IMG/VR virus record: IMGVR_UViG_3300023278_002223
Coordinates: 1-64,000 of that record
Origin: a virus
Length of the DNA stretch: 64,000 nucleotides
Reading direction: 5' to 3' (one strand)
Position 1 is the stretch's first letter; each line of letters begins with the position of its first letter. The translations under genes and the position numbers were made by a program. Below are positions 6,930-41,240 of this stretch, one piece after another. The notes below the pieces were generated by a model. That model did no database searches and was not told the DNA's origin. It saw only the letters and a list, made by a program, of their open reading frames with translations.

Positions 6930-7889
6930 ATGGAAAACCGCGAGCTACTAAGAGCAACCGCTGGAAGCGATGCTCAGTCCCTAGAGAACCGCAAGGCTCT
7001 CGCACAAGTCCTAGCAAACGTGTGGAAGCAAGGCGTCCTAGAGCCAACTCTCATCGGCGACATCTTCTCCCGCATTGACGTTGAGGCTGGCATTGACGCC
7101 AAGTTCCCTCTCGACTTCTACACCCCAGCTGATTCTGATGGTACTGAGTTCGACGCATTCGTAATCGCCCGTGAGGGTGCCGTTCCTAACCGCGTCATCG
7201 ATGGTGACGAAGTACACGTACCTACATACAAGATTGCTAATAGCATCTCTTGGAACCTCGATTACGCCCGTGACGCCCGTTGGGATGTCATTGCACGCGC
7301 AATCGAAGTCTTCACTAACGGTTTCACCCGTAAGATGAACGACGATGGTCTACACACCCTCCTCGCAGCAGGCGGAACTACTGAGACCGTTGACACAGCA
7401 GCATCTGCTGGTTCATTCACCAAGAAGCTCGTTACCGATCTTCAGGTCGCAATGAAGCGCCAAGCTGGTGGTCGTGACGCACGTTTGACCAACCTACTCG
7501 TTTCACCAGAGGCAATCGCTGACATTCGTCTCTTCGCAGAGACCCAAGTTGATGACGGAACTCTCCGTAGCCTCATCAACAGCGATGGCAACCCAGCTCC
7601 AAGCCTATTCGGCGTAGAGCTCAATGAGCTAATCGACCTCGGTGCTTCCCAAGCACTCACCACCTACTGGACTGGTACCATCGGTGGAACACTCGATAAC
7701 TCAGACGAAGAGATCGTCATCGGCCTCGACCTCAGTACTCGTGACAGCTTTGTCATGCCAGTACGCGAGGACATGCAGATGTTCGACGACGCCACCCTCC
7801 ACCGTTCCGGTAAAGCCGGAGTCTACGGATGGATGGAGCTCGGCTTCGCTTGTCTCGACACCCGTCGCGTCATCACAGGTGCATTCTAA
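6930..7889 (+). CDS. Major capsid protein (HK97-fold type)
   Basis: 319 aa. Gene order (protease/scaffold, decoration, this gene, terminator, connectors) and composition point to the major capsid protein. The N-terminal helix-rich arm (ENRKALAQVLANVWKQGVLEP) and the pattern from residue 120 on (DDGLHTLLAAGG, LLVSPEAIADIR, FGVELNELIDLG, GLDLSTRDSFVMPVREDMQM, GKAGVYGWMELGFACLDTRRVI) are typical of phage capsid proteins that run through an A-domain to the C-terminus. Arg codons are almost all CGC/CGT. The leader (6856-6929) is U-rich and has no strong Shine-Dalgarno. Confidence 0.85.
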   Translation: MENRELLRATAGSDAQSLENRKALAQVLANVWKQGVLEPTLIGDIFSRIDVEAGIDAKFPLDFYTPADSDGTEFDAFVIAREGAVPNRVIDGDEVHVPTYKIANSISWNLDYARDARWDVIARAIEVFTNGFTRKMNDDGLHTLLAAGGTTETVDTAASAGSFTKKLVTDLQVAMKRQAGGRDARLTNLLVSPEAIADIRLFAETQVDDGTLRSLINSDGNPAPSLFGVELNELIDLGASQALTTYWTGTIGGTLDNSDEEIVIGLDLSTRDSFVMPVREDMQMFDDATLHRSGKAGVYGWMELGFACLDTRRVITGAF

Positions 7890-17272: not shown

Positions 17273-20200
17273 GTGGCAGCAAACGACTTTATTCTAAATC
17301 TTGGGGTTAAGTTTAGCCCAAAAGACGTGGATACAAAGGCAATCAAATTAGCAATAGCCAAGGCGGCTGCTGCTTCTAAGGTTGTTATTTCCAAAGCCTC
17401 ATTGAGCAAAACAGCGCAAGAAGGAATCAAGAAGTCCTTGGCTGGCGCATCTATCTCCCTGTCAAACGTTAAGATTGACACCAAAGGAAAGGCAACAATA
17501 CAGGCCGCCTTTGGTAAGATGGCACTAAGGTTGAACAACGTTCAGCTATCAAGAGCCGGAGCCTCAAAAATGCAGGCCCAGGTTAAGGCAATGCCATTCT
17601 TTATTGGCAACATCAGGATAAACGCAGCAGCACAGAGGCAACTACAGGCCCAGCTCGGAACACTCAGAGTTTCAGCCCAACCAGCGTCAAGACAGGCAGC
17701 CAATGCAGCCGCAAGACCTGGAGGGGGGTCAGGAGGCGGAACTGGCCCGCTCAACGAGCAAGACACAGCATCTAGAGTTCAGCAGATCAAGAACAACAAT
17801 AAGGTATTGGCTCAGTACGCCAGGACAGCAACTGGGGCAGAGAAAGCCGAAGTGGCCCTCAACAGGGTTGTAGCCAACTCAGGAAGAAGCTGGCAGCTAG
17901 CCGGAGCAAGAATCGGAGCAGTAGTAAAGAGGTTCGGGGAATACACAATCGCCGCCTCTCTCGTGCTAAACCTAACCAAGGGATTCAGGAGCGCAGCTCA
18001 GGGACTCACAGAGTTCGACAACGCGCTACAAGACCTCTCTAAGATTGCTGCGGTAACCGACAAGATAGATCAGGCAGGAAGAGGACTAACCAACGTAGCT
18101 CTAAGCACTGGTAAAAGCGTAACTGACGTATCCACAGCCCTTAACGACTTCGCTCGTCAGGGACTGGGCCTACAGGATGCTCTAAACAAAACAGAACAAT
18201 CACTAAGACTAACCAACATCTCACAGTTGTCGGCTGCCGACTCTGCGAAGATCGTTACCGCATCATATAAGGTCTTCGGCCTAACAAATGAATCACTGTC
18301 TGAGTCGCTAGATAAGCTATCCGTGTTCGCGGATAAGAGCGCGACAAACGTAACCGAGATTGGTAAAGCGTTCTTGAGGTCAGCTTCGTCAGCAGCCTCT
18401 GCTGGGCTAGAGATTGACCAATTCCAGGCGATCCTAGCTGCCACATTGGAAGCGACTCGACTAAACTCAAGTCAGATTGGTACCGCGTTCAAGACAATTC
18501 TAGCCAGAATCCAGAGAGACGCGCCAAAGCTAAGAAAGCTTGCTAACGGATTCTTGGACCTAAACGACGCACTGAGACTCAACGCTTCAGACACAGTATT
18601 CGAGACCTTCCAGAAGGTTGCGGGAATCTTCCCTAAGCTAAACGGACAGCAGAAGAACATGATCTCACTACAGATCGCTGGTGTTCGTCAGGCTAACATT
18701 ATATCAGCAGCATTCAGCAACTTCGGCAAAGTGAACGAGTTGCTAGATCCTCAACTACAGACAACAGGAAAAGCCCTAGAGAAGAATGCAGAGCAGCTAC
18801 AGAAGCTAAGCGTTAGATCTCAGAACTTCCAAACATCCATCAAGGCTTTGGCTGCCGAGGTTGTTGGGTTTAACAAGGGTGCAGACGAACGAGGATTCGG
18901 AGCTACCGCCATAGTCGGTGCAGTAGATGCAGCAACAGATTTCGTTAACATTATAAGAGATGTAAACAAGGGCTTCGACTCTCTTGTTGCTGGCGCTGGA
19001 GCTTTCGGAAAAGTGTTCAATATCGCCGCGATTGCAGCATTCTTCACAGTTACAAACGTTGCCATCAGGAAGGTCGTTGCCGGAACAAAGCTATTCCTTG
19101 GATCAACCCAGCAGGCCGCTGGGGTTGTCGGGCAGCTTAACACGCAGCTGAGTGGGACTGTCAATGCAGAGAGGCTCGTTACAAACGAGCTAAGAACCCA
19201 GAACGCACTAAGAAAAGGCGGTCTAGCTATCGGTGGAGCCGGAGCTGGGAAAGCTGCTACAGGTGGAGTTGGAAAAGCCGGAAGCGCACTTAAGGCTGGA
19301 GGATCAGCACTCGCTGTCTTCGGTCTGCTTGAGGTTCTAGGCTCACAGTCACAAAAGCTAACCGCCAGGATAGAGGAGACAACAGAGGAGGTCGGAGAGC
19401 TCGGAGCAGTAAGCGCCACAGCGTCTGACCAGACAAAGCTCCTATTGGCTAACTTCACAAAGACAGCCCTAATAGCGGGATTCGTAGGAAAGTCTCTTCT
19501 CGGACTAAGCACCAAGGCCACAGCGCTAGGCGCTGGGCTTATTGCAGCTGTTTCATTCGCAGCAGCCGCCAGAGAGCAGGCAAAGAAAGCATCAGAGCTA
19601 AGCCAAGCGCAAACAGACGTATCAAACCTACTACAGGACTCAGCCAGGTCAGCAGAAGCAGTAGCGTCGGCTCTAGCAAGTGTGAGCCAGGATGTCCTTA
19701 AAACCAACATCGGTGCGAACATCGAAGCCCTAGGGGCAAAAACAGCAGGGTCTCTAGACGCGAACATCCAGAAGCTATTTGGAGACATCGGGCTAAACGA
19801 CAGAAACCTTGGAAACCTATCAGCCAAGTTCGAGACACTAACAAGAACAATCTCAAAAACAACAGACAGCCTTCAGAATGCTTTCGACTTCGAGTCAACA
19901 GTAAAGTCAGCAGCATCCACAAGACAGGAAGCCCTGGCCACAGAGAAGCTAATAACAGAGGGAATAACAAGGGACACAGCCGGACTCTTGGCAAAAGTCA
20001 ACACCATTGGAGAAGAGTTCTCGTTCACAATAGCCGGAGCTGGAGAAAGCTTCCTTGCTGACACCCTAAGGGCAGTTCAGGCAGCTGAACAAGGCGGATC
20101 CTTTGATGGGGCAATCGCCTCAGAGGGGTTCGAGAGAATTAGCGCAGAGATAGACAAGCAAACAGAGGCTGCCGAAAACCTAAATAGGCAGTACAGAATA

Positions 20201-22381
20201 TTCGACGCAGCCGTAAAGGTTGCAGGTGGATCTTTGGACGTGCTACTTGGTGACCTGGAAGCACAGGGGACTGCAGCAGCACAGACTGTGAAGGAGTTGG
20301 TCTTACAAAAGGGAACACAGAAGGCCCTAAACGACCTAACCGAAGATCACAAAAAAACCAATTCAGAGCTAGCCAACCTATACCAAGTGAGAGAGAAGAT
20401 CTCAGCGGTAGAGGTGTCACAGGCAAAGAAGCTGTTGACAGCTGGTAAAGAATACTTGGTCGTCCTGAACGGAACAGCCCAGAAGATTTCAAAGTCAGTA
20501 AGTGACGAGAGAAAGAAGAGGGAGACAATCCTAGCTGAGGCCAGGATTCAACAGGTAGTCAATAAGCTAGCTGCAGACGGACAAGCATCAAGGGCCAAAG
20601 AGGTGGAAGCGCTCCTAAGAGGAAGACTTGAGGGAGAGAAGACTCTAAAGATCGCGCAGCAGAGAGTTCAAGCCCTAAGAGAGGCTGTAGAGCTAACAAA
20701 GGGAGCACAGCAGATAGAGCTTCAGTCAACACTAGAGGGAGCAGAAGTAGAGCTAAGCAACCTTAAGGCAGAGCTGGAAGAGGGGGCACTCTTCAACGTT
20801 GCCGTACAGATAAGGAAAGCCTCACTTGAGCAGTTTGAGGCTACAAAAAGCAAACTTGACACAATCATCGAAGACTCAGTAGCCAAGGTCACCGGGTCAG
20901 AGAAGGATTTGGCAGAAGCCAGAAAAGAAGTACAAAAGCTAAACCAGAAGCTAATAAGCGACCAAAGGGCACTGTCATCCGCGAGGTCAGCAGAGCTTGA
21001 CGCAAACAGCAATGTGATCTCAGCAATGAGAACAGCGGCAGACGCCCAGTACAACCTAGCCATATCAACAAACAGAGCCAAGAGAAGAGTCTTGGAGCAG
21101 GTTGGGGCGGTCAGCACTTTCTCAGAAAAGATTGCATCAATAAGCTCAGACCTAAACATAAAACTAATCGGAAGCGAAAAAGAAGTCCTAAAGGTGAGAT
21201 CAGAAGCAGCAGGAGAGATGTTGAACATCTTCCAGCAGCAGTTCAGCTCTATCCAAAGCCTAGGAAAGTCAGCAGCAACCGCAGGGGTTCAGTCTGTAGC
21301 AGACATATCAAGAGGACTCGGGGTGGCTCAATCAATCGCAGGAGGAGCAGACGTTGGCAGCTTCAATGCTGACCAGCTAAAATCAGCCCTCCAGTTTGAA
21401 AGCCTGTTCCCTGAAATCGGGAAAGCTGTAGCGGACTTTGGGTTGGCTCAGCTTGGAGTAGATCCAGCAGTAATGGAGAGCATCGAGGACAAGATGTTAA
21501 CCCTAGCCGAGATCACAGCGGAGCAGGGCAAAGCCAATGTTTCTACTGCCCAAGACCAGTTGGCAGCAGCCAGGGTTCAGGCAGAAGAGTCAGTAAAGGC
21601 CACAAAAGCAGCAGCCCAACAGCTTGAGACAACAAAGGCCCAAAAGAACGTAGCCCTCCAGTCGTTCGCAGTCACAAGATCACACCTAAATCTCGCTACA
21701 AGGGATTTGGCAGAGCAGAGAGATCAGGCGAGCAGAAGGCTTGGAGCTCTTGGCAAGGTTATTGAGGTTAACGAGAAAAACCAGACAACACAGCATGACC
21801 AGTTGAAGTCCATCAACGCCACAGTAGACGAGCTTAAGAGGCTAAATGGAATCATGGGAAGCTTTGCTAACGCCAGAGCGGCAGCATTCAGTGCAACTAA
21901 CATAGATAACAACGCCCACGGAAGCCTCTCCTCTGGAGAGCTAAACGGACTCGCCTTGGCTGCCAAGAGGGAGAAATCTCAAATGCCAGCTGGCTCCAAG
22001 CTAATGTTGGCCAACACATCCGAAGTCGTCCTAAACAGGAGACAAGCCGGAAGACTTGGAATGACACCAAGAAGACAGGCCAACGCAGCCAATGGAAATG
22101 GCAACGCAGAGGGAATGATCGCAGCAGTCGGAGGGCTCAGAAATGAAGTCAGAGCACTAAGATCAGACATAAGCACCGGAGGCGTCAAGAACGTTAGCGT
22201 TCAGGTTGACACCAACAAGAGCGTGAATGTCAAGGGGATCCAGGGCCTTGGCGCAGAACTAGAGAGAAGCCTTGCTGGCAAGTTCGCATCGAACCAAGAC
22301 CAAGAGGCAATAAGAAGCGCCCTTATGGATATCGTAAACAAACTAGGAGAAGACGGCTTCCTAGATTCACTAGGAAGATAA
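17273..22381 (+). CDS. Tail tape measure protein
   Basis: 1702 aa from a GTG start with GGGGAG 7 bases upstream. It sets tail length and is probably expelled into the cell on infection. A conserved tape-measure core (TP901/PhageMin type) is visible at about residues 220-420: FDNALQDLSKIAAVTDKIDQ, LSTGKSVTDVSTALNDFARQGL, ADSAKIVTASYKVFGL, DKLSVFADKSATNVTEIGKA, IGTAFKTILARIQRDAPKL. Hydrophobic, Ala/Gly-rich segments near 570-590 and 720-770 could span membranes; long Ala/Lys/Glu coiled coils fill the rest, and the C-terminus has MLANTSEVVLNRRQA. At about 1.5 angstrom per residue a tail near 250 nm is expected. Confidence 0.92.
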   Translation: MAANDFILNLGVKFSPKDVDTKAIKLAIAKAAAASKVVISKASLSKTAQEGIKKSLAGASISLSNVKIDTKGKATIQAAFGKMALRLNNVQLSRAGASKMQAQVKAMPFFIGNIRINAAAQRQLQAQLGTLRVSAQPASRQAANAAARPGGGSGGGTGPLNEQDTASRVQQIKNNNKVLAQYARTATGAEKAEVALNRVVANSGRSWQLAGARIGAVVKRFGEYTIAASLVLNLTKGFRSAAQGLTEFDNALQDLSKIAAVTDKIDQAGRGLTNVALSTGKSVTDVSTALNDFARQGLGLQDALNKTEQSLRLTNISQLSAADSAKIVTASYKVFGLTNESLSESLDKLSVFADKSATNVTEIGKAFLRSASSAASAGLEIDQFQAILAATLEATRLNSSQIGTAFKTILARIQRDAPKLRKLANGFLDLNDALRLNASDTVFETFQKVAGIFPKLNGQQKNMISLQIAGVRQANIISAAFSNFGKVNELLDPQLQTTGKALEKNAEQLQKLSVRSQNFQTSIKALAAEVVGFNKGADERGFGATAIVGAVDAATDFVNIIRDVNKGFDSLVAGAGAFGKVFNIAAIAAFFTVTNVAIRKVVAGTKLFLGSTQQAAGVVGQLNTQLSGTVNAERLVTNELRTQNALRKGGLAIGGAGAGKAATGGVGKAGSALKAGGSALAVFGLLEVLGSQSQKLTARIEETTEEVGELGAVSATASDQTKLLLANFTKTALIAGFVGKSLLGLSTKATALGAGLIAAVSFAAAAREQAKKASELSQAQTDVSNLLQDSARSAEAVASALASVSQDVLKTNIGANIEALGAKTAGSLDANIQKLFGDIGLNDRNLGNLSAKFETLTRTISKTTDSLQNAFDFESTVKSAASTRQEALATEKLITEGITRDTAGLLAKVNTIGEEFSFTIAGAGESFLADTLRAVQAAEQGGSFDGAIASEGFERISAEIDKQTEAAENLNRQYRIFDAAVKVAGGSLDVLLGDLEAQGTAAAQTVKELVLQKGTQKALNDLTEDHKKTNSELANLYQVREKISAVEVSQAKKLLTAGKEYLVVLNGTAQKISKSVSDERKKRETILAEARIQQVVNKLAADGQASRAKEVEALLRGRLEGEKTLKIAQQRVQALREAVELTKGAQQIELQSTLEGAEVELSNLKAELEEGALFNVAVQIRKASLEQFEATKSKLDTIIEDSVAKVTGSEKDLAEARKEVQKLNQKLISDQRALSSARSAELDANSNVISAMRTAADAQYNLAISTNRAKRRVLEQVGAVSTFSEKIASISSDLNIKLIGSEKEVLKVRSEAAGEMLNIFQQQFSSIQSLGKSAATAGVQSVADISRGLGVAQSIAGGADVGSFNADQLKSALQFESLFPEIGKAVADFGLAQLGVDPAVMESIEDKMLTLAEITAEQGKANVSTAQDQLAAARVQAEESVKATKAAAQQLETTKAQKNVALQSFAVTRSHLNLATRDLAEQRDQASRRLGALGKVIEVNEKNQTTQHDQLKSINATVDELKRLNGIMGSFANARAAAFSATNIDNNAHGSLSSGELNGLALAAKREKSQMPAGSKLMLANTSEVVLNRRQAGRLGMTPRRQANAANGNGNAEGMIAAVGGLRNEVRALRSDISTGGVKNVSVQVDTNKSVNVKGIQGLGAELERSLAGKFASNQDQEAIRSALMDIVNKLGEDGFLDSLGR

Positions 22382-29975: not shown

Positions 29976-32618
29976 ATGGCTAGCAGCGGCTACGTCTATC
30001 CTTCCAGTATGTGGTCTGGCGGCATGACGCTCCCAGTCAGTGGTGACATAGGTTACGTCCAACCTTTCGATACCGCGTCCGGAAACCTGGCCAACGGGAC
30101 CGGGATATATCCACTTGCAGTGCCAAGGATTGACGCTGCAGCCACCACGGGTATCACTGGAAACTCCCACATCCTACCATATAGCGCTCAACTATTCTAC
30201 ACTGCTCTTGAGTCAATCAAGCTTGAGTACACCGCAAGAGGTGCTACCGAGCCAGACTTTCACGTCTTCTACGATTATGCCAAGACAGACACAGAGATCC
30301 TAGCAAGCCACAGCGGCCTGCTAGAGATGCCTCTGCAGAACTTCCCACACCTAGTTGAAGAAGCCCAAGAGGCAATCAGCGGACTCGTATGCATGTCCGG
30401 CTGGAGCGACAGCATGGGCGACTACATGAACAGGGTGTTCGACTATAGGATTCTCCTTGCAGACGTTCCTTCTGGAAACAGACTCCAAGACGGAGTTACA
30501 TACAGGAACATAGCAACAGGGCAAGATGAAACTATCAACTGTCTGACAAGAGCAAGATCTGGTCTCTTCCCATTGGACTTCAATGCCATTAAAAACCTCA
30601 GCTCAACCTGGGGAGTGATGGCGAGCGGGACAAGGCTATACACCGCTGGGGGAGAGTTCTCTGGAGTAGGTCAGCCTATTGGAGACAGGACAACAAGAGA
30701 GCCTGAATTCCAGCAGTTCTCGTTCATGGGTCACTTTGACTGGTTGGCCCAAAGCCTACTCTGGAGACCACCAGTAGTAGAGAGCTTCAAGAATTCCACA
30801 GACACAAACACCCATAGTCTAATTACTCACGAGAGAGACAGATGGGAGTCCGCCTCTGGGTTCTACTACGATGACCCAGACGACGTGTGGTGGCATGCAA
30901 GCGGAACCTCCCCATCGGGAGTACCAAGCAAGTCTTCCAATTACGACACCGCCGCCCTTGTCTCTGCCCCAGCCCCTTCCTCACTAATCTATGGTGACTT
31001 GGGGTACTGGAGAGTTAATAAGCAGAGGTCAACCAAGTGTACGCCAATCGGCACATATGTTACAGGAGAGTCAAGCGGAACAACCTGGGAACTTGACACC
31101 CCAGACCTTCCCAGTCTGTATGAGCAGGTTGCTCTCAATAATACCGGATCTGGCCTCGATGTAAACACAAAGGACTACTACAAGAGTGACAACTTTAGTG
31201 GATACGTTTACAATTCTGGAACCGGAAGCGGTGGGTATAACGGAGACTACGTAGACATTAACACCAAGATATACTCCGAAAGACCTCAAGACTTCTCAAC
31301 ATACAATCAGGTCGGATATGTAGACCCAGACCCTTCCGCTAGCGGAGCGTACCTTGGTCAGCCTGGACAAGCGACCACTGCCGGTGCATTTGAAGCTGGC
31401 CCAGAGATCTTTGAGACATCGGTGTCTTGGATCTCCCCTGGTGCTAGTGGCAGATGGGAAATCAGCAATTCTGTAGTAGAAGCTGGTTCTGGAATCTCCT
31501 ACCCCCTAGGCAGTGGCTCTGCAATTGTTGTAGACATGAATATCGATAGTCACAATGCTGCCAGTGGAGAATGGACATCCCATACAGGTAGAAACGACTT
31601 TGAGGGTGTACACGTTTGCTTGCAGACAAACAAGCACATTCCTCACATAATTGAAAAAGACTCCAACTCAAGGACAGCAGACCTAATCTGGACTATGGAA
31701 AAGCAGATGGTGGTCTTTGATGACTTCATTCTGTTCGATTATGTTGAAGGAGCTCAAAACGAACAGTACCAACTGTTGACGTATGACACCAACAGCATAT
31801 CCAATAGCTACAACTCAGACCTGAATGCCGCATTCGGTTCCGATGGAGTTCTGGCCTCAGGGTATAGCTTCATAAGAAAAGCCCCAACACTCATGGGGCT
31901 ATATTTCTCAAGTACGGGGCTTCAAGAGTCCCAAACCCTAGTGTCCGATGGAACGTTTTATAACGGAGGAGAAGAAGTTCTTGAGACTGTATTCAGTGGA
32001 TCTTGGAGTATGTTCGGAGACCTGCCAACAAATAGGTCAAACAGATATGGATCTCTGGGAGGAATCAACTGGAGACAGGGAGGCGGAACGCTAATCTCTG
32101 ACTCAGACCTAACAGCTGACACTGAGTGGGACTGGGGGCTTGAGGAGAGCATAGGAGCCACCTCATACCCATCAGGAGCCGTTGCCAGCATATACAGCCT
32201 AAGCGACACAACACCAACATCCGGAACAGCCTCTGGAACCCTGTACACCGTAGACCTGTGGGACAAGTACATAGCAGACATGGACAGGCTTGCAACCCAC
32301 TGGCCATCAGGAGCAGTCGGCTCTTATGATGTTGATCCAGACCTCCTTCCATCAGGAAACGATTGGGAGAGATTTGAAGATAGTACAGATTCAGGCGTGT
32401 CCGGGTGGCACAACGCCGTAGCCCGCACATCTGGAGTAGCAACAGCCCAATTTGGGCAGCTAGAGGATGACGGCGGAACCACCATTGACGCCTTGAGCTT
32501 CAATCAGCTCATATCCAACGGAGCAAGCACATTCGCTCCATCTGGAGGAGTTGGCTACAACATCAATAGCATCTGGTTGAAATACCCAGTAATATTAGGC
32601 CCAAGTGGTCTAAACTAA
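29976..32618 (+). CDS. Large tail-tip protein, unknown
   Basis: 880 aa, ATG one base after the hub stop. Gly/Ser/Thr/Tyr-rich, no long coiled coil. It contains many short SG-rich turns (MWSGGMTLPVSGDIGY, YNGDYVDINTKIYSERPQDF), Trp-rich stretches (QSLLWRPPVVESF, DVWWHASGT) and a C-terminus beginning WDKYIADMDRLATHWPSGAVGSYDVDP. The style fits a surface-exposed tail-tip or side-fibre protein. It is the last gene of the tail operon. No enzymatic motif is evident; family not recognised. Confidence 0.45.
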   Translation: MASSGYVYPSSMWSGGMTLPVSGDIGYVQPFDTASGNLANGTGIYPLAVPRIDAAATTGITGNSHILPYSAQLFYTALESIKLEYTARGATEPDFHVFYDYAKTDTEILASHSGLLEMPLQNFPHLVEEAQEAISGLVCMSGWSDSMGDYMNRVFDYRILLADVPSGNRLQDGVTYRNIATGQDETINCLTRARSGLFPLDFNAIKNLSSTWGVMASGTRLYTAGGEFSGVGQPIGDRTTREPEFQQFSFMGHFDWLAQSLLWRPPVVESFKNSTDTNTHSLITHERDRWESASGFYYDDPDDVWWHASGTSPSGVPSKSSNYDTAALVSAPAPSSLIYGDLGYWRVNKQRSTKCTPIGTYVTGESSGTTWELDTPDLPSLYEQVALNNTGSGLDVNTKDYYKSDNFSGYVYNSGTGSGGYNGDYVDINTKIYSERPQDFSTYNQVGYVDPDPSASGAYLGQPGQATTAGAFEAGPEIFETSVSWISPGASGRWEISNSVVEAGSGISYPLGSGSAIVVDMNIDSHNAASGEWTSHTGRNDFEGVHVCLQTNKHIPHIIEKDSNSRTADLIWTMEKQMVVFDDFILFDYVEGAQNEQYQLLTYDTNSISNSYNSDLNAAFGSDGVLASGYSFIRKAPTLMGLYFSSTGLQESQTLVSDGTFYNGGEEVLETVFSGSWSMFGDLPTNRSNRYGSLGGINWRQGGGTLISDSDLTADTEWDWGLEESIGATSYPSGAVASIYSLSDTTPTSGTASGTLYTVDLWDKYIADMDRLATHWPSGAVGSYDVDPDLLPSGNDWERFEDSTDSGVSGWHNAVARTSGVATAQFGQLEDDGGTTIDALSFNQLISNGASTFAPSGGVGYNINSIWLKYPVILGPSGLN

Positions 32619-32619
32619 A

Positions 32620-32630
32620 TTCGTATAATA
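32620..32630 (+). promoter_or_regulatory. Late promoter box TTCGTATAATA
   Basis: Exact match, two bases after the tail gene stop, upstream of the 31-aa peptide gene. Confidence 0.75.
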
Positions 32631-32698
32631 GGATACACTAAAGAGGGCTTCGTCCGAGCCCCCTGTTTCTGTCAGTACCCCCTGAAAGGTGGTTAAAC

Positions 32699-32794
32699 AT
32701 GAGGAATTCTAGCCGACTGGTTAGATTGCTTCTGTTGTCAGCGTCTCTTGGCGCTCTCCTCCTTGCCGCTCGCATGCTTGGACTACTAGCTTAA
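32699..32794 (+). CDS. 31-aa hydrophobic membrane peptide
   Basis: ATG 32699, AAAGGTGG about 6 bases upstream, two stops in a row region at the end (TAATAA). The product begins MRNSSRLVRLLLLSASLGAL and continues LLAARMLGLLA: a basic N-terminus and one membrane-length Leu/Ala helix. It is the only ORF of a mini transcription unit bounded by a late promoter box (32620) and a perfect terminator (32884-32917). Late timing plus a single short transmembrane helix suggests a role in lysis or the cell envelope (holin regulator, pinholin-like or release peptide), but this is inference. Confidence 0.55.
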   Translation: MRNSSRLVRLLLLSASLGALLLAARMLGLLA

Positions 32795-32883
32795 TAAGTT
32801 GCCCCACTTATATTGCTATATGTGTTGAGACCAATGTCTCCAGACAAGCAGGCTTGAAGCCGTAAGTGAGGACCAGAAACTCT
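32795..32883 (+). ncRNA. Structured 3' region of mini transcription unit (candidate small RNA)
   Basis: No ORF. Contains GAGAC-CAAT-GTCTC (about 32824-32837) and AAGC-AG-GCTT hairpins between the peptide gene and its terminator. It may be a structured 3' UTR or a processed small RNA of about 100 nt. No known RNA family recognised, and it lacks tRNA hallmarks. Confidence 0.3.
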
Positions 32884-32917
32884 TAGACACACGCTAATAC
32901 CGTGTGTCTATTTTTTT
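32884..32917 (+). terminator. Intrinsic terminator
   Basis: Perfect 10-bp stem TAGACACACG / CGTGTGTCTA with loop CTAATAC, then seven T. One of the clearest terminators in the window. Confidence 0.93.
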
Positions 32918-32943
32918 GTCTAATCTAAGTCGTCGGGGTATAA

Positions 32944-32954
32944 TTCGTATAATA
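32944..32954 (+). promoter_or_regulatory. Late promoter box TTCGTATAATA
   Basis: Exact match, 26 bp after the terminator and 20 bp before the next start codon. It is followed by AAGGAGATATAAACT, a ribosome-binding site very like that of T7 gene 10. Confidence 0.8.
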
Positions 32955-32974
32955 TCCTGAAGGAGATATAAACT

Positions 32975-33367
32975 ATGAATAGCAGAATAGTCATTCCAGA
33001 GAACCTAGTAGTTGGCGGCATGTCCCTAACTCTCTCTATCGAGATTGTGGCCAGAAACCTCGAAACCCAAGAAGAGCAGACGTTTGACACCCCTGGACAG
33101 GGGAATCAGGCGTTAGCCCTAATTGAGGCAGAGTGGAGATCAGGATCCCAGGGAGGTAGGGCCAGAGATATTGCCAACTTCAAGGAGGATGAGAATCACG
33201 CCCAAAACAACGAGTTCGTATCTAGAACCCTCCTATTGGACCCAGTCCTTGGACACGAGTACTACGGACAAATAACAACATCAGTAACAGCCAGAGAAGT
33301 AAACATCCCAGTCGCCCCACCAGGAGACGCTGAGCCAGGAATTGGCTTAGGCATAGAAATAGAATAA
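32975..33367 (+). CDS. 130-aa late protein, unknown
   Basis: Starts 9 bases after a strong AAGGAG. Sole gene behind its own late promoter box, so probably made in quantity. Sequence: an N-terminal strand pair (IVIPENLVVGGMSLTLSIEI), a polar middle with RSGSQGGRARDIANF, and a C-terminus ending PPGDAEPGIGLGIEIE. No signal peptide, transmembrane segment or recognised domain. Followed by the 688-bp non-coding block, for which it might be the upstream mRNA. Confidence 0.55.
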   Translation: MNSRIVIPENLVVGGMSLTLSIEIVARNLETQEEQTFDTPGQGNQALALIEAEWRSGSQGGRARDIANFKEDENHAQNNEFVSRTLLLDPVLGHEYYGQITTSVTAREVNIPVAPPGDAEPGIGLGIEIE

Positions 33368-33493
33368 GTCGCAGGGGTCCAACTGGTCGTCGGGGCCTAA
33401 CTCACCTCTGCCCCCCAAACCCACTTGCATGTCCGGTGAGGTCACTAGGGCAAGCCCTAGAACCGAGCGCACCATACGCAACTCACAAGGGCT

Positions 33494-33507
33494 ACCCCCT
33501 TGAACCC
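33494..33507 (+). repeat. CCCTTGAACCC box, unit 1
   Basis: ACCCCCTTGAACCC; with CAAGGG at 33486-33491 it can form a 6-bp hairpin. Related boxes at 33543-33556 (TTGGACCC variant), 33681-33692 and 33725-33737. Confidence 0.7.
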
Positions 33508-33516
33508 GTGGCCTAA

Positions 33517-33531
33517 GCCCTCTGCAAGAGC
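33517..33531 (+). repeat. 15-base direct repeat GCCCTCTGCAAGAGC, copy 1
   Basis: Exact copy at 33668-33682, 151 bp downstream. CTCT/AGAG within the unit can form a short self-hairpin with loop GCA. Confidence 0.85.
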
Positions 33532-33667
33532 ACCATACGGGTACCCCCTTGGACCCATGGCGTTAGCCCTAGACAATATCTGCCCTTAGGTTCCCTAAGG
33601 AGCAGGAAACCCCACCAACCACCATACGGCTCCACAAAGAACAAGGGAATCTGTCCAAACTCCAAGG

Positions 33668-33682
33668 GCCCTCTGCAAGAGC
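33668..33682 (+). repeat. 15-base direct repeat GCCCTCTGCAAGAGC, copy 2
   Basis: Exact second copy; it sits in the loop region of an AAGGGC / GCCCTT hairpin (33664-33669 with 33681-33686) that ends in the third CCCTTGAACCC box. Confidence 0.85.
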
Positions 33683-33975
33683 CCTTGAACCCTTACAGGT
33701 TCGTTGGACATTCACAATGGGCAAGCCCCTTGAACCCTCTCAGACCCAGATTTTAGTAGTCCCCAACAACTATACCTGACGACCATGCCAGGATCCCCGA
33801 GAAGGGGTCCAGCAGGCTCTCTAATGCGTTCGGATATGGGGGTGACTATGATGGTAAGCAGATAAAATAAAATGGGCTGAGAATGGATGCCAGGGGGCTA
33901 CAGTCCAATTTACCAAAATAAGGTCATCGGAAGGAGGTATTCCGAGAACCCGAAGTAGGTATTTTGGGTGCAGAA

Positions 33976-33986
33976 TATCGTATATA
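33976..33986 (+). promoter_or_regulatory. Weak late-promoter-like box TATCGTATATA
   Basis: Resembles the TTCGTATAATA box with mismatches, 69 bp upstream of the 34056 gene. It is the only candidate promoter for that gene after the non-coding block. Confidence 0.35.
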
Positions 33987-34055
33987 GAGGTAGCAGGGGG
34001 CTAGTCTAACGTTAGGCTGGTACGGTCGTTACACTCTAAATCTCAGAAACCAATC

Positions 34056-34472
34056 ATGAAGATTTATGACGCGGACACAGTTGCTGAAATGATGCCTCTT
34101 CTTCACTCATACAGTAGGAGCATTGAGAAGCTCTATCTGGAAGTTGAAGAGATTACCAATAACATTAATGAGCTTGAATCCCTTGAGGACGCTCAAAGTC
34201 ATGCTGGTGAGATAGAAGTCCAAGAACACCACTTTAGGCTTAAAAGCAGGAGACTTATCGATACAGCTGACGAACTTAAGAAGGATTTTGGCATAGGCGT
34301 TTGCAATCCCGTATTCGGGACACTAGACGTAGGAATTATGTCGAAATCAGGCTCCATGCACCTCATGCTTTGTGTAGATTATACATGCACAGCGGACCCA
34401 GACACCTGGCTCTGCCATGAGACATACATGGGATCGAAACAACCTAGACTCTCCAAATGGAGCGATGTCTAG
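34056..34472 (+). CDS. DUF2203-like protein
   Basis: 138 aa, last rightward gene, no clear Shine-Dalgarno. It resembles the DUF2203 family plan as I remember it: an N-terminal DADTVAEMMPLLHSYSRSIEKL helix (compare a typical EAnaLLPLL start), a long helical hairpin, then a GIGVCNPVFGTLDVGIMS strand, a LCVDYTCTADPDTWLCHETYMGSKQPRL end that parallels the family's LCW-GE--I-YWH-----F-GRQP ending. DUF2203 has no established function. A late regulatory or structural role is possible; confidence in the family is moderate because the conserved Trp and His are shifted. Confidence 0.45.
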   Translation: MKIYDADTVAEMMPLLHSYSRSIEKLYLEVEEITNNINELESLEDAQSHAGEIEVQEHHFRLKSRRLIDTADELKKDFGIGVCNPVFGTLDVGIMSKSGSMHLMLCVDYTCTADPDTWLCHETYMGSKQPRLSKWSDV

Positions 34473-34520
34473 AAAGTAAGAGTACACATAAAGAGATTAT
34501 AGTGGATTCTATAGAAATTG

Positions 34521-34559
34521 AGATCTAGCCTCTTGGTCGGGGCTAGGTCTTGTTTTTTT
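34521..34559 (+). terminator. Rightward terminator at convergent junction
   Basis: 12-bp stem (34521-34532 with 34539-34550, two G-T pairs), loop TTGGTC, then a tract with seven T ending at 34559. It ends the late rightward transcription just before the converging leftward genes. The leftward side has an A8 tract at 34597-34604 (T8 on the - strand) after a GC-rich stretch, a weaker terminator. Confidence 0.88.
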
Positions 34560-34634
34560 GTAAACATAGTGCGGGTCAATACTTACAAAAATATAAAAAA
34601 AATCGCGGCGCACTCTTCGACCTATTTTCTTGCC

Positions 34635-35342
34635 CTACCCCTGTTCTCCGCAGCCCTCGCAACCGCCACATCCGTCCTCGGTCCCACAGCTGGAGCCACA
34701 GGCTCTAGGAGAAGTGTCTAGCTCTCGGATCTCCCTAGTGGCTAGATCGATGAGGTAAACAGAGTCCTGATTGTGACTTAGGGCAGGGATCTGCTCAACA
34801 GGAACGCCCTCAACTAGGCCTCGGATAGTCTTAGAGACCATCTCGTGAGTCACTACGACAGAGATATCATTGCTAGATATCAAGTTGAGAAAGTGGTCAT
34901 TGACTCTTTCGGCAATGTCCCTGTAGCTCTCGCCTCCTGGGAAGGCGTTGCTCCACTTGTTCCCCTGACGATAGGCTGTCTCCACTGGGAAGAACTGGTC
35001 CCACTCGCCTCGCTCTAGGCCCGCCACACAGCCCATATCTCCCTCTTTTAGAGCATCGTGGGTGTGAATGTTCTGAAAGTCAGACTCGATTACGTCAGAG
35101 ACGATAGTGGAGGTCTGCATTGCTCTACCCAGAGGAGAGGAGTAGAACATAAAGTCCTCACCCCCCTCCAGGGAGTCTAGAAGGAAAGAGACCATGACAC
35201 CCATTAGGAATGCCTGCTGGCAGCCCTTGGCTGTTAGGGGTGAATCAAGTCGACCTTGGGCCTTGGAAATTCTGTTCCAGGCGGTTTGACCGTGTCTGCA
35301 CAGGATGATCTTGCCCATCCCTGGCTTGCTCTTAAACTTCAT
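34635..35342 (-). CDS. Histidine phosphatase (phosphoglycerate-mutase superfamily) with Cys-rich tail
   Basis: 235 aa, AGGAG 6 bases before the start. Family core is intact: RHGQTAWN with catalytic His17, LTAKGCQQA, YSSPLGRAMQT, an acid residue in LKEGDMG (about 100) and the second His in VVVTHEMVSK (about 166). It would dephosphorylate a small phosphometabolite or phosphoprotein through a phosphohistidine. The C-terminal 25 residues are unusual, with seven Cys in a Gly-rich tail (CGSSCGTEDGCGGCEGCG) that could bind metal or iron-sulphur. Last gene of the EF-G unit; substrate unknown. Confidence 0.8.
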   Translation of the reverse strand: MKFKSKPGMGKIILCRHGQTAWNRISKAQGRLDSPLTAKGCQQAFLMGVMVSFLLDSLEGGEDFMFYSSPLGRAMQTSTIVSDVIESDFQNIHTHDALKEGDMGCVAGLERGEWDQFFPVETAYRQGNKWSNAFPGGESYRDIAERVNDHFLNLISSNDISVVVTHEMVSKTIRGLVEGVPVEQIPALSHNQDSVYLIDLATREIRELDTSPRACGSSCGTEDGCGGCEGCGEQG

Positions 35343-35372: not shown

Positions 35373-37448
35373 TTACTTATTCTTGGCTTCTTGATCGGCT
35401 TTGTATTCGGCGATCAATTCTTCTTTGATGTCGCCTGGGGCTGCCTTGTAGTTTGCAAGCTCCATGGTGTAGGAGCTCATTCCACGGGTTGCGCTTCGGA
35501 GATCAGTTGAGAATCCAAACATCTCAGCCAGTGGGGTCTCTGCAATAATAACAGCGTCTGTTCCTTGCTGGGTGGTGTCTACTAGAATCCCGCGTCGGGC
35601 CAACATTAGGCCCACCATGTCTCCCTGGAACTCTGAAGGACCAGAGATCTCAACCTTCATGATTGGCTCTAGAATCTGTGGCTTTCCTTTGGAGTAGAAC
35701 TCTCGGAAGCATGCACGAGCGGCTGCCATAAAGGCCATGTCACTTGAGTCTACGGCGTGAGCCTTACCGTCCTGAAGCTCAACTGCTAGCCCATCGATTG
35801 GTGCGCCAACTAGTAGACCTTTAACTACGGCCTGAGCGAAACCCTTCTCAACAGATGGGATGTATTCGCGAGGAACGTTACCACCAGTGACAGTGCTTGT
35901 GAACTCCAGATCTTCTCCTTCAGCGGGGCCCATCTTTCCGATAATCCTACCGAACTGACCTGAGCCACCAGTCTGCTTCTTATGGGTGTAATCGAATTTA
36001 ACTTCGCGGGTCAAAGCCTCGCGGTATGCAACTGTTGGCTTACCAACCTCAACCTCAGCACCAAACTCACGCTTCATGCGCTCGATGTAGACCTCCAAGT
36101 GGAGCTCTCCCATTCCTGAGATTAGGGTGTCACCAGTCTTATCGTCCTGGGCGACCTTGAAGGTTGGGTCTTCTCGTGTGAAGCGACCAAGAGCCTTTGA
36201 AAGGTTGGCCTGCTTCTTACGGTCCACACACTTGATGGATAGCTGAATTACTGGCTCAGGAACGTGCATGGATGTGCAGAGTAGATCGACTCCAGGGGCA
36301 CGGAAGGTGTCACCAGAAGCACAATCGATTCCGAACAGTGCTACAATGTCACCGGCCTCTGCTCTCTCGATGTCTTCCATCTGGTCAGAGTGCATTCTCA
36401 CAAGGCGGCCAATCTTAACTACCTTGCCTGTGCGGGCGTTCTCAATCTGCTCACCCTTGACGAGTGCTCCCTGGTAAACTCGGATGTAGGTAAGCTGTCC
36501 ATACTGTCCGTCCTCAAGCTTGAAGGCGTATGCTAGGGTGTCAGCACTCTCGTCCATTTGGACCTCTTCCCCAGTCTTAGCATCAAGAGCCACGTTGGTA
36601 ACATCGCCCGGTGCAGGGAGGTATCGAGTGACTGCGTCTAGGAGGGGCTGGACCCCTTTGTTTTTGTATGCTGAACCACAGAAGACTGGGCAGAGCTCAA
36701 GAGAGATGATTCCAGCACGGGCTGCACGGTGGATTTGCTCTTCAGTAGCAGCGTCCTCTAGGACGGCCTCCATTAGCTCATCATCGAACATAGAGAGAGT
36801 GTCTAGGAGCTCCTCACGAGCAACCATAGCATCGGCCTCCATGGAAGAGGGGATCTCTTCGATTCGGATGTCCTGACCATTATCACCGTCGAAGTAGTAA
36901 GCCTTCATTGTGACGAGATCTACGAGCCCCTCAAGGTCAAGGCCCAGTCCGATAGGAAGCTGAAACATTGCCGAGTTTAGCCCCAGTTTGTCTTTTAGGT
37001 CAGAGCAGACCTGGATTGGGTCAGCACCAGTGGTGTCGCACTTGTTAACAAAGGCGAGGCGAGGTACGTTGTATCGACGCATCTGACGGTCAACGGTAAT
37101 TGACTGAGACTGAACACCAGCAACACCGCAGAGGACAAGAACAGCGCCATCTAGAACACGAAGAGAGCGCTCAACCTCAACAGTGAAGTCAACGTGCCCT
37201 GGAGTGTCAATGATATTAATAGGGTTCTTACCCCACTCAACGTGGGTGGCCGCTGAGGCGATAGTAATACCACGCTCTCGCTCTAGCTCCATTGAGTCCA
37301 TTGTGGCACCAACGCCATCCTTGCCTCGGACTTCGTGGATGGAGTGAATTCTGTCACAGTAGAATAGAATGCGCTCAGTTAGAGTCGTCTTACCGCTATC
37401 TACGTGGGCCGAAATTCCAATGTTTCTCATATCTGGATTGCTGGGCAT
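35373..37448 (-). CDS. fusA: Translation elongation factor G
   Basis: 691 aa, full length for EF-G, which moves tRNA and mRNA through the ribosome using GTP. All GTPase motifs are intact: P-loop AHVDSGKT (14-21), RGIT switch I (59-62), DTPGH (81-85) and NKCD (135-138). Domains II to V are present: domain IV contains the GGSGQFGRI stretch, and the end has the expected [18 protein letters not shown]. The N-terminus ([37 protein letters not shown]) is of the spd/mitochondrial EF-G1 type from memory. It starts in a TAATG overlap with a 39-aa zinc-knuckle gene. Arg codons are mostly CGN, as in the capsid gene, suggesting strong expression. Phage-encoded EF-G is rare. Confidence 0.95.
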
Positions 37449-37567
37449 TATGCTATTTTCCTTGTACTGTCTCTGCGAGCATACGACTCACAAAGCTTGC
37501 AGACTAGTGATTGGCTGCGAAAGTCAACCTTTTTGACTTGCTTGCGGCACTTCTTACATGTTTCCAT
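37448..37567 (-). CDS. 39-aa zinc-knuckle mini protein
   Basis: Starts [13 protein letters not shown] and has [12 protein letters not shown] later, giving two CxxC pairs spaced by 17 residues, a classic zinc ribbon or knuckle in a very basic protein. Its stop overlaps the EF-G start (TAATG), so EF-G translation is probably coupled to it. The -10 element lies so close upstream that the transcript may begin at or near the ATG (leaderless). Binding to RNA, ribosome or the EF-G mRNA is possible; function unknown. Length below usual ORF cut-offs, but codon structure, position and motif support a real gene. Confidence 0.7.
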
Positions 37568-37573
37568 ACCATT

Positions 37574-37602
37574 ATATTAGCACACAATGTGTAGCGTTTC
37601 AA
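37574..37602 (-). promoter_or_regulatory. Leftward promoter of the EF-G unit
   Basis: On the - strand TTGAAA (37602-37597), 17-base spacer, TAATAT (37579-37574), or TATAAT overlapping at 37576-37571. The spacer ends TTGTGTGC, similar to TTGTGC in the promoter at 41209. AAAAGTTGAAAC is shared by both. Confidence 0.75.
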
Positions 37603-37612
37603 CTTTTATTTT

Positions 37613-37642
37613 AAAAAAGGCCACGCCAATTAAGGCGTGACC
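37613..37642 (-). terminator. Leftward intrinsic terminator
   Basis: On the - strand GGTCACGCC (37642-37634), loop TTAATT, GGCGTGGCC (37627-37619), then TTTTTT. Nine base pairs with one G-T. It separates the sugar block from the EF-G unit. Confidence 0.93.
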
Positions 37643-37673
37643 AATGAAAGGAGAAGTGTCGTTCTCTTTAAGT

Positions 37674-41169: not shown

Positions 41170-41208
41170 TTGTTGTCTCCGGGGTTCTTAAAGGTTGTAC
41201 TTATAGAT

Positions 41209-41237
41209 ATAATAGCACAAGATGGAGACTGTTTCAA
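41209..41237 (-). promoter_or_regulatory. Leftward promoter of the nonulosonate block
   Basis: On the - strand TTGAAA (41237-41232), 17-base spacer, TATTAT (41214-41209). The sequence AAAAGTTGAAAC plus TTGTGC before the -10 is shared with the EF-G promoter at 37574. It begins just after the stop codon of the upstream gene. Confidence 0.7.
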
Positions 41238-41240
41238 CTT

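Follow-up and report, generated by a model that had tools for sequence, protein, structure and literature searches.

The DNA analysed here (the window) comprises 64 kb of an 89,248-base IMG/VR virus record, which is a linear fragment. Rightward late and structural genes, including those for the major head protein (6930-7889) and the tape-measure protein (17273-22381), occupy the window from 1 to 34.5 kb, and leftward genes occupy the remainder, with the two directions converging at about 34.5 kb. Tail genes, a DnaB-type helicase, a primase, a UvsX-like recombinase and DNA polymerase III alpha are also recognised, and no tRNA was found in the 64 kb. A full-length elongation factor G (EF-G) is encoded at 35373-37448 on the minus strand (TIGR00484, 909 bits); its matches at 41-43% in the phage collection lie in records of uncultured phages that are 484-735 kb long, and many further matches are records that may contain host DNA. 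Between the final two rightward genes lies a long non-coding block, and the features of this locus are given below.

32942-32954 (+): motif AATTCGTATAATA (site 32946 of the motif described below), the likely late promoter and the nearest strong one upstream of the block
32975-33367 (+): ORF130, the upstream neighbour, 130 aa, of no family, with a strong Shine-Dalgarno sequence
33368-34055 (+): non-coding block, the largest ORF gap, without coding signal in six frames and with repeats above all shuffles
33441-33743 (+): part A, a C-rich repeat zone with all copies of CACCATACG, CCCTTGRACCC and a 15-mer
33470-33628 (+): span of the three CACCATACG boxes
33915-34040 (+): part B, three consecutive hairpins directly upstream of ORF138, fold z -4.25
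34056-34472 (+): ORF138, the downstream neighbour, 138 aa, homologous to L018:8867-9289 (a weak DUF2203 match)
34519-34552 (+): strong intrinsic terminator after ORF138, the end of the late unit

The block is bounded by the stop codon of ORF130 on the left and by the ATG at 34056 on the right, and no other non-coding stretch of the window is as long as its 688 nt; among gaps between same-direction ORFs of at least 60 aa the runners-up measure 356 and 225 nt. Neither strand contains an ORF of at least 60 aa, the longest being 50-51 aa on the minus strand, and the best frame inside the block has a codon-usage score of -0.03 to -0.29, against 0.26 +/- 0.09 for true genes, with no coding signal in any of the six frames. 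A coding or recoded gene is ruled out by these scores, by the shortness of the ORFs and by the repeats lying in different frames. At 36% C, positions 33401-33800 exceed every other 400-nt stretch of the window in C content. An earlier note on this DNA had described a block with these bounds, lacking ORFs on both strands, distinct from genes in composition and placed ahead of the last rightward gene, and in all of this it was correct.

The repeats reported in that note are present with one amendment. CACCATACG occurs three times in the block (33470, 33531 and 33620) and is absent from the rest of the window, the exact 15-mer GCCCTCTGCAAGAGC is found at 33517 and 33668, and the pairing arms form perfect hairpins at 33445, 33486, 33584, 33663 and 33927; of the four CCCTTGAACCC boxes claimed, three are exact (33497, 33682 and 33727), while the one at 33546 reads CCCTTGGACCC, with one mismatch. 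Against 2000 dinucleotide shuffles, the block contains 27 repeated 9-mers (shuffle mean 1.4, maximum 12) and nine repeated 11-mers (shuffle mean 0.1), and for word lengths from 8 to 15 bases its repeats outnumber those of all 2000. On the plus strand, GTCGTCGGGG flanks ORF130 on both sides, at 32929-32938 and 33386-33395.

Part A carries four copies of a single module, in which a hairpin of the type CAAGGGC-loop-GCCCTTG is followed directly by AACC(C):

33445-33464 (+): copy 1, CTAGGGC-AA-GCCCTAG AACC
33486-33507 (+): copy 2, CAAGGG-CTACC-CCCTTG AACCC
33663-33692 (+): copy 3, CAAGGGC-11-nt loop-GCCCTTG AACCC
33715-33737 (+): copy 4, CAATGGGC-AA-GCCCCTTG AACCC, with one mismatch, matched by the covariance model

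Across these copies the arms and the AACC are conserved while the flanks and the loops, which measure 2 to 11 nt, diverge; the second pair is T-A in copy 1 versus A-T in copies 2-4, a two-sided compensatory change that keeps the pairing. Within the 64 kb, a hairpin of at least 6 bp followed by AACC is seen four times, in three cases inside the block, and never on the minus strand. A covariance model of the hairpin (R1), searched against 240 kb of this and related sequence, gives clear matches to the four block copies only, the best match elsewhere having an E value of 0.2. The conserved arms and AACC suggest selection on the module; this conservation falls short of proof of selection because the copies may share descent.

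Part B is the one segment of the block that folds well on the plus strand. Its three hairpins fold with z values of -4.1 to -4.25 on the plus strand and -1.45 to -1.5 on the minus strand, and their helices contain G-U pairs. The loop of the first hairpin displays GGAGGT, which lies inside the sole AAGGAGGT of the plus strand. Part B was chosen post hoc, and among 273 windows across the late half two also have z values below -4; such values (about -4) occur in coding sequence too. Outside the block, a covariance model built on part B (R2) gave no clear match. Folding of the block as a whole is near chance (z -1.85 on the plus strand and -0.76 on the minus strand), and part A by itself folds slightly better on the minus strand.

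A recurrent motif, aaTTCGTATAWWA, bears on the transcription of this region. Its seven high-scoring sites (3486, 4534, 11313, 15282, 26735, 32622 and 32946) are all intergenic and all on the plus strand, and it recurs before genes of the related contigs L006-L009, L018 and L020; most simply, it is the likely late promoter of the lineage. The block lies between two ORFs, in the interval from the promoter motif at 32942-32954 to the terminator at 34519-34552, and transcription of its plus strand is therefore likely. With this motif upstream and no terminator ahead of ORF138, the arrangement is, at the level of sequence motifs, that of an intercistronic region, and the block is probably transcribed as part of a late mRNA. 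A scan of 32500-34800 found no sigma70-like site on the minus strand. Elsewhere on that strand, the leftward genes at 37.5 and 41.2 kb are preceded by TTGAAA/TATAAT-type sequences, and 37449-37673 and 41170-41240 have in common a AAAAGTTGAAAC...TATAAT-type promoter that is unlike the late motif. A second non-coding stretch on the plus strand (32619-32920) begins with the late-promoter motif, has a fold z of -4.3 and an intrinsic terminator at 32884-32910, and includes a 31-aa leucine-rich micro-ORF (32699-32794); it is possibly a separate small transcript.

The C-rich, G-poor character of part of the block raises the question of whether it could be the rut region of a Rho-dependent terminator after ORF130. 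Within the half transcribed on the plus strand, 33401-33800 indeed has the highest excess of C over G per 400 nt (0.16, the next being 0.085), but in 78-nt windows many intragenic places exceed the block. Termination here would moreover cut off ORF138, whose sole nearby promoter candidate, a weak variant of the motif at 33979 (CGTATATA), ranks 13 with a background-level score. We regard this as the least probable of the explanations considered.

The same signals bear on the proposal in the earlier note that the block may be a new large RNA. We considered it in the form of an independent phage transcript resembling GOLLD or ROOL, which would be long, structured, separately accumulating and made late in infection. 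The block is non-coding, about 0.6-0.7 kb long and adjoins late genes, and for GOLLD an increase during lysis, as well as its size and phage setting, is documented (PMC12286853). Against this, the overall fold is weak, the block itself includes neither promoter nor terminator, the window holds no tRNA, and Rfam yields no match at either gathering or permissive thresholds. The transcription implied by that proposal is made likely by the promoter motif upstream and the terminator downstream; as to structure, the fold of the whole block is unremarkable and no Rfam family matches. An independent large RNA appears improbable to us.

A site acting as DNA, for replication origin, partition or packaging, would have its repeats bind protein and its hairpins serve as extruded or single-strand signals. 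Several short motifs are indeed repeated with varying order and spacing, and the inverted repeats would be able to work on either strand. The origin suggested by the earlier note finds no echo in the GC skew, however, which shows no sharp local turn at the block and changes only broadly, tracking gene orientation. There is no AT-rich stretch for unwinding, part A being C-rich, and the replication genes are 12-25 kb distant. No terminase gene was recognised near the block among the genes scanned, and the contig ends are uninformative in a linear fragment. The syntenic relative described below also does without the block. Nothing specific speaks for the origin and packaging-site readings, and we consider a DNA site rather unlikely, if somewhat less so than an independent large RNA.

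Few relatives of the phage have been sequenced. IMG/VR searches with both flanking proteins and EF-G, as single proteins and as alignments, returned none, and relatives were obtained via the major capsid protein, which retrieved three contigs sharing 67% identity and several more in the 43-46% range, and via a 1062-aa tail gene, which retrieved one relative at 26%. The sole record spanning the locus with an ORF138 homolog is the 65-kb G002 (30% identity, E 1e-14), in which a 222-aa structural gene replaces both ORF130 and the block, and the ORF138 homolog begins 5 nt past its stop. In L031, the tail genes are followed by a 225-aa gene whose resemblance to the 222-aa protein of G002 is distant, and neither an ORF138 homolog nor a comparable gap was found. 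The likeness of ORF138 itself to DUF2203 (PF09969) was judged by eye, and the G002 homolog matches this family at E 1e-4, which is under the curated cut-off.

Among the findings that would refute its proposal, the earlier note had named a failure of the pairing to be conserved among relatives, and the only syntenic relative lacks the whole block. The CCCTTGRACCC box is absent from four related records, and no similarity to the block was found in phage and plasmid records. One IMG/VR match to a pair of the repeats, at two loci with the same surrounding proteins, falls within a coding ORF and was taken as chance. The block is missing in the sole syntenic relative and has no matches elsewhere, and it is therefore lineage-specific as far as seen; between-genome covariation is not available because no relative carries it.

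This distribution would also fit the main rival to our interpretation, in which the block is a functionless relic, left behind when recombination took place or a gene was lost at a variable position between two late genes, with short internal duplications and now released from selection. The locus is variable, with a structural gene abutting the ORF138 homolog in G002 and a distant homolog of that gene in L031, and the block is without conservation. The 8-mers in common with the block number 21 in the ORF130 region, where the other stretches tested reach at most 14, and the two align weakly, with a local score that is reached by 12 of 300 shuffles. Given that score, the weakness of the word sharing and the absence of any trace at the protein level, an origin of the block as a duplicate of ORF130 was rejected, as was a remnant of the 222-aa gene of G002, of which there is no trace in any frame. 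The lack of resemblance of any block frame to either protein counts against a relic, as do the arms and AACC that persist, with their one compensatory change, among diverging loops and flanks. Phages rarely retain 0.7 kb of idle DNA. On balance a relic seems unlikely to us, and ranks ahead of the other rivals.

We propose that the block separates two cistrons of the phage's final late transcription unit as a non-coding region specific to this lineage, a reading to which we assign a probability of roughly 0.4; an orphan intercistronic region with structure is its most likely identity, and a function can only be inferred. The near-chance fold of the whole block, the slight minus-strand preference of part A, the late-half windows that fold as well as the post hoc part B and the lack of a relative with the block weigh against this reading. 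In this model, RNA polymerase would start at the late promoter at 32942-32954, read through ORF130, the block and ORF138, and stop at the terminator at 34519-34552. The RNA of part A would present the hairpin copies, each followed by single-stranded AACC(C), together with the repeated CACCATACG boxes, and these elements probably serve jointly as a target with multiple sites, either for a protein or for RNA processing. ORF138 is without a Shine-Dalgarno sequence of its own; part B would fold into a structured leader ahead of this gene and may regulate its translation. A bolder version, which we hold to be a long shot, would make the block a new kind of phage RNA, in which scattered hairpin-AACCC modules and CACCATACG boxes recruit several copies of a protein, perhaps virion or ribosome-associated, and are joined to a leader whose hairpin loop displays a Shine-Dalgarno sequence and which controls the DUF2203-like gene downstream.

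If functional, the block would extend what is known of a sparsely sequenced phage lineage by a late RNA element made of multiple hairpins, and the hairpin-AACCC module is a concrete and searchable target; if it is a relic, it illustrates the variability at the end of the late region. The aaTTCGTATAWWA motif helps to delimit transcription units in this lineage.

With iteron-type origins the block shares multiple short direct repeats accompanied by inverted repeats, but its spacing is irregular, it has no AT-rich stretch and no recognised initiator gene adjacent to it, and it is not conserved. GOLLD and ROOL RNAs are often close to tRNA islands. The block resembles them in its length, its lack of coding capacity and its place beside the late genes of a phage, and differs in its lack of an Rfam match and of tRNA neighbours and in its weak overall fold; where those RNAs form one ornate fold, the block consists of repeated short hairpins. 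Phage late mRNAs can have structured intercistronic leaders, for example those of the T4 type, which control translation. While the block is much longer than such leaders, carries a repeat array in front and has no known regulator, it resembles them in placing a structured RNA just before a gene that lacks a Shine-Dalgarno sequence, within what would be a late transcript.
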